From contig JAEUNL010000069.1 of NCBI GenBank assembly GCA_016791115.1, positions 1-64,000 on the forward strand: DNA of 64,000 nt, read 5' to 3'. The position numbers were made by a program, and so were the translations under genes. This DNA is from Rhodocyclaceae bacterium. Its GTDB lineage: Bacteria; Pseudomonadota; Gammaproteobacteria; Burkholderiales; Rhodocyclaceae. Below are positions 35,467 through 37,894 of the stretch, in pieces; the first letter of the stretch is position 1, and every line of letters begins with the position of its first letter. The notes beneath the pieces are model-generated. The model ran no database searches, had not been told where the DNA came from, and saw nothing but the letters and a program-made list of their open reading frames with translations.

Positions 35467-35949
35467 ATGGCCCGTTACGACGAAATCGAAGAACTCGAAC
35501 CCGGCCTCGACGGCGCGGGCCTGCGCATCGGCATCGCGATGAGTCGCTTCAACATCGATGTCGGCGAGGGGCTGCTGTCCGGCGCGGTCGATGAACTCAA
35601 GCGCCTTGGCGTGTGCGACGACGATGTGCTGATCACCTCGGTGCCCGGCGCGCTAGAGCTCCCGCTGACCCTGCAGGTCATGGCGCAAGGCGGGCAGTTC
35701 GATGCGCTGCTCGCGCTCGGCTGCGTCATCCGCGGCGAGACTTACCATTTCGAGATCGTGTCGAACGAATCGGCGCGCGGCATCACCGAAGTGCAGTTGC
35801 ACACCGGCGTGCCGATCGCGAACGGCGTGCTCACCACCGAGGACGACGATCAGGCGCTTTCGCGCATGCACATAAAGGGGCGCGATGCGGCGCAGGCAGC
35901 GGTCGAGATGGCCAACCTGCTGCGGCAACTGCGCGCACGGCGGACATGA
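35467..35949 (+). CDS. ribH: 6,7-dimethyl-8-ribityllumazine synthase
   Basis: The 160-residue enzyme condenses the RibB and RibA/RibD products into lumazine. Typical segments are [18 protein letters not shown] and [14 protein letters not shown]. It assembles into large icosahedral or decameric shells. Its ATG is two bases after ribBX and its stop overlaps the nusB start (ATGA), fitting the common ribH-nusB coupling. Confidence 0.96.
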
Positions 35950-36896
35950 GCAAGTCGGCGCGGCGACGCGCGCGCGAATTCGCGCTCCAGGGCATCTACC
36001 AGTGGCTGCTGTCGGGCAATGACGTCTCGGTGATCGAACAGCACATGTCGCAGGTTGCCGCTTTCGACAAGGCCGACGGCGAGCTGTTCCGCGCCCTGCT
36101 GCGCGGTGCGATCGGCGATGCCGAGTCGCTGCGCGAGGCGCTGCGGCCGCATCTGGCGCGCGCGCTCGACGACGTGTCGCCGGTCGAGCATGCGCTGCTG
36201 CTGCTCGCCGCGCACGAGCTCAAGTCGCATCCCGAGACGCCCTATCGCGTCGTCATCAACGAGGCGATCGAACTGGCCAAAGAATACGGCGGAACCGAAG
36301 GGCACAAGTTCGTCAATGGCGTGATCGACAAACTGGCCACGTCATTTCGGTCCGTTGAGACTGGGCGATCGCATCCAAATGATGAGACTGGCCAAACCGT
36401 TCGTGCCGCGAAGGCATCGGATCCTCTAACAGTCGTGGTCCCAGACAGAATCGAACGATTGGTTTCCGAGGCGGTTGGAAATGACTTCGTCGTTTATCAC
36501 AATCCCGACACGATGGGGCGCGAGTTCGGGGACGAGGAAGGATGCGTAGATGATCCGGAGAATGGCTTCTATACAGACAAGCAGGCTGAGTATGCCAAGG
36601 GAGCGCGCGTATGGATGGTCACAGGCACGGGCCACCCAAGAGAGTACTTTCTTTGCGGCTGCTTCAGGCTAGAGCGGATTGAGGACGGTGCTGAGGAAGG
36701 GTTCCAAAGTCTTTTGAGTGGATATGGAGTAACACTTCCGAGTCATCTGCGGCCCTCTCTCAATCATGAGGCATGGTTCCCTGATTTTCTAAATCGAGTT
36801 GGTCATTTTGGACTCGGCTTCCAGCGAATTTCGGACGAACATGTAGCGGCGGCTTTTGTTGAGTTGGTGCGACAGAAGATTGCTTCTTGGCGATAG
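35946..36896 (+). CDS. nusB: NusB fused to a foreign C-terminal domain
   Basis: Residues 1-130 are a full NusB antitermination factor ([19 protein letters not shown] start, [15 protein letters not shown] and [13 protein letters not shown] end). A normal NusB stops about here, but the frame runs on for about 186 residues with no stop. From about 36336 the DNA is visibly poorer in GC and uses AGA, CTA and GGA codons rare in the neighbours. The added part contains [28 protein letters not shown] and [10 protein letters not shown], which I recall only from uncharacterised proteins. The fusion may be natural or the insert may be translated separately from an internal start such as GTG near 36435. 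Confidence 0.85.
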
Positions 36897-36928
36897 TGTG
36901 TTTTTCAGCGTCCTGCATGTGAATTGAA

Positions 36929-37894
36929 TTGCCATCCGAATTCGATCTGATCAAGCGCCACTTCCAGCGCCCGACCCGGCATACCGAACTCGGTGTCGGC
37001 GACGACGCGGCGCTGATCCGCGCCACGCCCGGTTCGGAACTGGTGGTGTCGACCGACATGCTGGTCGCCGGCACCCACTTTCTGCCCGACGATGATCCCG
37101 AGTCGCTCGGCTGGAAGGCGCTGGCGGTCAATGTGTCCGACCTGGCGGCGATGGGCGCGGTGCCCAAATGGGCGTTGCTGGCGATTGCGCTGCCGCATCC
37201 GCGCGAAGGCTTCGTCGCGGCCTTTGCCGCCGGCCTGTTTGCCTGTGCGGAGCGCTTCGGCATCGACCTCGTCGGCGGCGACACGACACGCGGTCCGCTG
37301 AGTTTCACCGTCACCATCATCGGCGAGGTGCCGCAGGGCGGCGCCTTGCGGCGTGACGGCGCCTGGCCCGAGGAGGACGTCTGGGTTTCCGGCCAGCCGG
37401 GGCTTGCCGCGCTTGGTCTCGCCAGCCTGCAGGGCCTGGTTGACCTCGACGCCGCCGGCCGGCATGCCTGTCTCGCAGCGCTGCGGCGCCCGCAGCCGCG
37501 TACCGCGCTCGGCCTTGCACTGCGCGGGGTGGCGAGCAGCGCCATCGACGTGTCCGACGGCCTGCTTGCCGACCTCGGCCACATCCTGGAGCGCTCCGGC
37601 GTCGGCGCCGTGGTCGATGTCGCGATGCTGCCGCGCGCCGCGCTCGACGCTGTTTGCGGCGATGGCGAGCGCGTGCGTGAAAGCCTGCTCGCCGGCGGCG
37701 ACGATTACGAGCTGATCTTCACTGCCGCCGCCGAGCGCCGTGCCGAGATCGATGCGCTCGCCCATCGGCTCGGCCTGCCGCTGACGCGAATCGGCACGAT
37801 CACCGATCAGCCGGCCGGCACGCTGCATCTGCGCGAGGCAGACGGCGCGCTGAGCGTGCCCGCGCGGCGCGGCTACGACCATTTTGTGCCCTGA
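36929..37894 (+). CDS. thiL: thiamine-monophosphate kinase
   Basis: The 321-residue enzyme phosphorylates thiamine monophosphate to the active diphosphate. Signatures: GVGDDAALIR, STDMLVAGTHF, KALAVNVSDLAAMGA, GGDTTRGP and AIDVSDGLLADLGH. The only plausible start is TTG at 36929, immediately after the foreign insert; relatives begin ATG-CCA-TCC, so the insertion probably replaced the first base of the codon. Confidence 0.93.
   Translation: MPSEFDLIKRHFQRPTRHTELGVGDDAALIRATPGSELVVSTDMLVAGTHFLPDDDPESLGWKALAVNVSDLAAMGAVPKWALLAIALPHPREGFVAAFAAGLFACAERFGIDLVGGDTTRGPLSFTVTIIGEVPQGGALRRDGAWPEEDVWVSGQPGLAALGLASLQGLVDLDAAGRHACLAALRRPQPRTALGLALRGVASSAIDVSDGLLADLGHILERSGVGAVVDVAMLPRAALDAVCGDGERVRESLLAGGDDYELIFTAAAERRAEIDALAHRLGLPLTRIGTITDQPAGTLHLREADGALSVPARRGYDHFVP

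Follow-up and report, generated by a model that had tools for sequence, protein, structure and literature searches.

The window, a stretch of 64,000 nucleotides from a Rhodocyclaceae bacterium, contains an open frame on the forward strand that starts with an ATG at 35946, ends with a TAG at 36894-36896 and encodes 316 amino acid residues. The frame begins as nusB and continues through a linker into a second domain. Its neighbours, assigned with Pfam, are riboflavin synthase, ribBA and ribH on the upstream side and thiL, pgpA, cinA and recA on the downstream side. Between the stop codon of the fused frame and the TTG start of thiL at 36929 there are 32 bp. This distance had been given correctly in the first-pass annotation, where the feature was extended to 36928, the base before the TTG. 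The features of the region are:

35467..35949, forward strand: ribH, the upstream operon gene (PF00885); its stop codon overlaps the nusB start (ATGA)
35946..36359, forward strand: NusB core, residues 1-138, with the PF01029 match and the conserved columns kept
36360..36479, forward strand: linker, residues 139-178, without a protein homologue and partly predicted to be disordered
36435..36437, forward strand: in-frame GTG at residue 164, which scored best among the three internal starts in frame between 36327 and 36520
36480..36893, forward strand: putatively acquired PUA-superfamily (EVE/YTH-like) domain, residues 179-316, assigned from homologues, alignment and predicted fold
36894..36896, forward strand: TAG stop codon of the fused frame
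36929..37894, forward strand: thiL, the downstream operon gene, with a TTG start (AIRS domains PF00586 and PF02769)

NusB is the only Pfam family found in the 316-residue protein. The PF01029 match extends from residue 7 to 131 with an E-value of 1.8e-28 and covers positions 1 to 132 of the 133 in the profile. The core keeps 51 of the 53 columns that are identical in at least 26 of the 29 relatives read, and it resembles ordinary NusB in this conserved part as well as in its operon position in ribH-nusB-thiL. It had been noted that NusB ends at about residue 130. This agrees with the end of the PF01029 match, but the homology to the NusB proteins of the 29 relatives extends to about residue 138. 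The NusB part of the chimera is probably still functional.

A NusB match was present in 58 of 60 related genomes. All 58 matches stopped before the added domain, and the furthest ended at query residue 166. In 28 of the 29 relatives read, the NusB frame ended 139 to 173 residues from the start of the match, whereas the window protein has 178 further residues, which make up the linker and a folded domain. A long NusB of uniform composition, which would have marked an old lineage trait, was not found in the relatives examined. An alignment with relatives to reveal an empty site had also been proposed. The relatives examined are without the added domain, but an exact empty site was not obtained, as the source is the sole genome of its genus in the searched collection and thiL follows nusB in only 20 of the 29 relatives; in the other nine, the sequence read beyond nusB contained no recognised thiL. 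In the relative L011 (1501-2370), the NusB frame runs to 289 residues and overlaps thiL. By eye the extension is unlike the window tail; a frameshift introduced by sequencing would explain it, or else L011 has an extended NusB as well.

The 316-residue chimera is the only NusB detected in the source genome, a single draft of 73 contigs with an estimated completeness of 92.48%. A second NusB-like match was observed on contig C51 (E 4e-4). It has a NusB-like N-terminus followed by a methyltransferase, reads by eye as RsmB, and was rejected as a second copy of NusB. RsmB/Sun is an rRNA m5C methyltransferase that carries a fused NusB-like domain. Like the chimera, it is a NusB-fold protein joined to a module related to RNA modification, and one is seemingly present in the same genome by the above assignment. 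It differs from the window NusB in that it is a writer with a NusB-like N-terminus and not an antitermination factor. A literature search for NusB joined to a PUA or EVE domain showed nothing relevant in the titles and the starts of the abstracts of the papers listed. The term NusB is absent from the main text of the EVE census (PMC7641849), and the single mention in the covered part of PMC12707154 concerns BrxA of the BREX system, a proposed relationship which that paper disfavours.

The base composition was analysed next to the homology. The tail (codons 179-316) has a GC content of 0.524, which is below all 1317 overlapping 138-codon segments of the other long ORFs (minimum 0.556), a reference picked mechanically from the 64 kb in which some ORFs are probably spurious. 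The GC3 of the tail is 0.52, which is low but not unique, with 61 of the 1317 segments as low or lower. For the linker, values of 0.558 (GC) and 0.45 (GC3) were obtained, and codons 100-138, still homologous to NusB, are already at a GC of 0.547. Since the end of NusB is itself GC-poor, composition alone cannot place the junction, and it is the homology that puts it at about residue 138. The composition shift described earlier therefore holds for the tail, which has the lowest GC, but it is neither sharp at residue 130 nor unique in GC3. The central claim, a foreign and AT-richer domain fused in frame to NusB, was borne out by the 316-residue frame, by the GC of its tail, by its place inside the rib-nusB-thiL operon and by its absence from the relatives. 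As a sequence feature, the fusion is well supported.

At this composition, 178 open codons are expected by chance with a p of about 2e-4. The 40 codons of the linker alone are open by chance 19% of the time, and the fusion may therefore be accidental. Compared with the openness of the frame, the protein homologues are the stronger argument that the tail is coding.

The tail domain had no match in Pfam (E up to 10), PHROGs, NCBIfam or PADLOC. Seven homologues were collected, six of them stand-alone proteins of about 129-144 residues and one fused to an HNH nuclease. One is encoded on a Polaromonas plasmid (32%, E 8e-15). Five loci were found among 84,980 species genomes, in Acidobacteriales, Actinomycetota, Gemmatimonadetes, Pigmentiphaga and Methylobacter, with E-values from 7e-17 to 6e-24 against the candidate stretches. 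When only the window tail was used to scan these species genomes, a pattern-limited scan, there was no match, and the alignment-based scan that found the five loci rests on two short peptide patterns; therefore, further relatives may exist. Within the taxonomic family, the domain was present in 2 of 395 genomes, its own and that of the homologue L041. In overlapping samples of the order (1 of 399), the phylum (1 of 398) and the class (1 of 369), it was found in its own genome only. Neither the window tail nor the Polaromonas homologue had a match in phages, a pattern-limited search of viral contigs gave no match to the tail domain, and plasmids yielded no record beyond the Polaromonas one. When the solved structures were searched by sequence, only chance matches appeared.

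Eighteen columns do not vary among the seven homologues, and the window tail keeps 14 of them (13 of 17 if the start methionine is left aside), including Y7, H8, W46 and W100 in domain numbering. When each homologue was tested in a like manner against the remaining six, the stand-alone members kept 18 of 18 or 18 of 19 columns, compared with 18 of 27 for L041, which is divergent. The four changed positions in the window tail, compared with none or one in the stand-alone members, could be a sign of decay. In five homologues (L036 to L040), with the starts as set in this analysis, the conserved D-[FY]-VVYH motif comes immediately after the initial methionine; the start codon is GTG in L036 and the second of two adjacent ATGs in L038. 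The annotated start of the Polaromonas record lies a few codons before the domain motif. In the window protein, the position of this methionine is occupied by a glycine and the frame continues upstream. For six of the seven homologues, the gene is richer in AT than the locus around it.

The homologue L041 (1498-2274, 258 residues), which belongs to the same taxonomic family as the source genome, has the tail-like domain followed by a C-terminal HNH nuclease. The HNH half was recognised by PF01844 (3e-7) and by the PADLOC model mREase_IV (3e-8), and no library match was obtained beyond this half. The gene lies near an antitoxin and a PIN-domain protein, a toxin-antitoxin neighbourhood. L041 is likely a modification-dependent restriction enzyme. 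After L038 come GmrSD_N, NaeI, a C5 methylase and Vsr, and in L036, DarT and a macro-domain protein start about 3.6 kb away. The Polaromonas gene is near RES, DUF4145, Tn3 and type I restriction genes. L039 adjoins a PRiA4_ORF3 plasmid-type protein and ORFs that by eye are transposase-like. L037 is located between ORFs that look like housekeeping genes by eye, with a mutL-like one upstream, and so a defence context is not universal. The added domain had been suspected to be a defence or regulatory cargo. This is supported only in part. Several homologues have neighbours typical of defence or mobile elements, and L041 carries an HNH nuclease, so that a defence role can reasonably be supposed for the donor gene, but the setting of L037 does not conform to it.

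L041 itself matched 205 plasmid and 8 phage records and, among the matches listed, mainly the HNH half was covered. In L085 of a Vibrio phage (2099-2923), L084 (2548-3444) and L086 (2135-2935), the HNH half resembles that of L041 and the N-termini differ by eye, as if sensors had been swapped on one nuclease. L084 gave no BLASTP match to the reader half of L041 (E 0.65), and L085 has a weak NCBIfam match (4.9e-4) to PRK00809, which is presumably an EVE protein.

Modelling of the added domain had been proposed, and an AlphaFold model computed from the window domain and five homologues (pLDDT 83.9, pTM 0.81) gave a confident PUA-superfamily fold. When the model was compared with the PDB by Foldseek, the recognised leading rows were PUA-superfamily proteins, with weak E-values (best 5.3e-3). 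Against viral models nothing below 9.5e-3 was found; an EVE protein and ASCH proteins were among the rows. With VIA-align, the Z-scores were 10.7 for PH1033 (rmsd 3.0, 116 aligned), 10.6 for a Leishmania protein, 10.6 for the Mmi1 YTH domain, 9.6 for VcaM4I (6yex; rmsd 3.4, 118 aligned), 9.4 for PSPTO5229 and 8.9 for THYN1 with 5mC DNA; models that lack a clear match often reach a best Z of 7-8, but here the scores are higher and the recognised rows agree in superfamily. These rows are EVE, YTH and ASCH proteins. The predicted fold of the tail is thus like the EVE/YTH domains of PH1033, PSPTO5229, THYN1, YTHDF2 and Mmi1 (Z about 8 to 10.7 among the listed rows). The strand order of the model is compatible with the sixth EVE strand lying downstream of the core and next to strand 1, a statement about order and not about pairing. 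The two invariant tryptophans, W46 and W100, would be candidates for an aromatic cage such as the one for m6A in YTH domains.

In sequence, the tail could not be linked to the EVE family. No match to Pfam EVE (PF01878) was obtained at E up to 10, and hhalign of the tail domain against a 16-sequence EVE alignment, which represents 16 of 30 EVE loci, gave a probability of 0.1, with both alignments shallow. Because there is a PUA-type fold without a sequence-profile link, we call the tail a PUA-superfamily domain that is EVE/YTH-like by fold and not a member of EVE. That it is a reader-like domain of this superfamily is well supported by the predicted fold together with the HNH-fused homologue.

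The tail can also be compared with VcaM4I, one of the modification-dependent restriction enzymes of the EVE-HNH type (PMC7897488). The reader half of VcaM4I has a fold like that of the tail, and the layout of these enzymes is matched by the reader-like and HNH parts of L041. The EVE domain of VcaM4I is reported to flip the modified base into a pocket formed by P24, W82 and Y130 (PMC7897488). Unlike VcaM4I, the window protein has NusB as the partner, and no nuclease domain was found in its 316 residues with Pfam, which speaks against a modification-dependent (type IV) restriction enzyme. The EVE census distinguishes a fast-evolving class, which typically occurs in defence contexts, from a second class (PMC7641849). 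The source genome also encodes an ordinary EVE protein, L065 (G000:C10:49749-50189; PF01878, 9.4e-52), and EVE proteins were detected in 30 of the 41 genomes searched, its own and those of relatives. Since an ordinary EVE protein occurs in the own genome and in most relatives, the NusB-linked domain would add to EVE-type reading and not be the source of it.

From a full-length alignment, AlphaFold gave a pLDDT below 50 for residues 130-164, which are predicted to be disordered, and a helix at residues 160-174. The NusB part appeared as helices at low confidence, with no NusB relatives supplied, and the reader domain was again well formed.

The origin of the insert was analysed at the DNA level. 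The insert matches nowhere else in its own genome, where the linker patterns also found only the site itself, and repeat or IS patterns of the linker gave nothing on plasmids, in E. coli genomes or in viral contigs. A family-wide DNA search with the linker hit 56 of 277 genomes, the source genome among them, at E up to 0.1, where tens are expected by chance, and the non-self matches were 17-39 bp long. Eight of the matched loci were read by eye: three are sdhB-like (L076, L077 and L083), two are response regulators (L075 and L079) and three were unrecognised. An IS end or a REP-like repeat was rejected as the origin of the linker. One segment of the linker, 36388-36410, shares a 23-bp identity with a gene of a relative that by eye encodes a response regulator, in another frame and with an E of 8.7e-5 in that one genome; this is perhaps chance. 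The TTG start of thiL was considered as a scar of the junction and rejected because the relative L005 also has a TTG. The searches for traces of the insertion event revealed neither a repeat or IS nor a convincing target duplication.

The reader might also, or only, be made as a separate protein, from an internal start such as the GTG at 36435, from its own transcript or by cleavage of the linker, and then act independently of NusB. Such a product would fit the stand-alone state of six of the seven homologues, five of which have a start codon at the beginning of the domain, and the predicted disorder of the linker. A separate transcript would be suited by a promoter-like match in the linker region at 36355-36383, which is a consensus match only (9 of 12 consensus bases; one found, shuffles mean 0.3). 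At 36853-36878 there is a terminator-like match, which is no more than expected by chance (one found, shuffles mean 0.8). However, a good ribosome-binding site is missing at all three in-frame starts examined. The anti-Shine-Dalgarno duplex at the GTG was -3.3, compared with a background mean of -2.4 and a 5% point of -6.4. This counts for little, since the test is weak: the operon's own starts score no better (nusB -1.7, thiL 0.4, pgpA 0.2). As no stop lies between the two parts and the homologues' start has been lost to a glycine, one long product is likelier than two, and we regard the separate protein as very unlikely.

We favour, with a probability of about one half, the reading that the insert between nusB and thiL is an acquired mobile gene, which encoded an EVE/YTH-like reader of the PUA superfamily and became joined to nusB in one frame, that NusB works and that the tethered reader keeps some binding of modified bases. 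A small, defence-type gene for a nucleic-acid reader would have landed between the two genes and been joined to nusB through a linker that is predicted to be disordered over about 35 residues. The NusB part would still bind boxA RNA together with S10, which is NusE, for rRNA antitermination, and the tethered reader might provide the antitermination complex with a second contact to RNA or DNA. The association of NusB and NusE with boxA RNA in rRNA antitermination has been described (PMC4807359).

Nearly as likely as this working tethered reader is a neutral passenger, in which the same gene was acquired and the accidental fusion is tolerated by NusB, the reader is unused and will decay or be lost. 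An open linker is then unsurprising at 19%, the fusion was seen in one genome only, four of the 18 invariant positions are changed and the tail has kept a composition distinct from that of the window. The passenger has to account for a whole domain of 138 codons that has stayed open and for the 14 invariant positions kept, including Y7, H8, W46 and W100. An assembly or consensus artefact, with an insertion or a missing stop that is absent from the real genome, is most improbable. The 73 contigs of the draft, probably a metagenome bin, would allow for it, but both flanks are the expected operon, the insert of about 540 bp lies inside a contig of 100,687 bp and its DNA has no match elsewhere in the genome.

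A more far-reaching version of the tethered reader is a transcription-coupled sensor. The NusB-fused reader, placed on the antitermination complex, would detect base modifications on nascent RNA or phage DNA, or m5C in rRNA, and alter whether the RNA polymerase continues. We consider this quite unlikely; if true, it would be a restriction-type sensor wired to transcription and not to a nuclease.

These results add a small PUA-superfamily domain family that is unrecognised by any Pfam model searched. In one member, the partner is a core transcription factor and not a nuclease, and none of the examined relatives has this combination. If both halves work, the reading of modified bases would be physically coupled to antitermination. 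Even if the fusion is an accident, it shows how a mobile defence-type gene can join a core protein.

Elsewhere in the window, the region 1132-2671 was read by eye. It contains an apparent start of an IS110-type transposase ('MRIVTVGIDLAK...') that continues as one open frame into the following DNA, and another frame looks like an N6-adenine DNA methyltransferase with an NPPY motif. The region is probably a truncated IS beside a methyltransferase gene.
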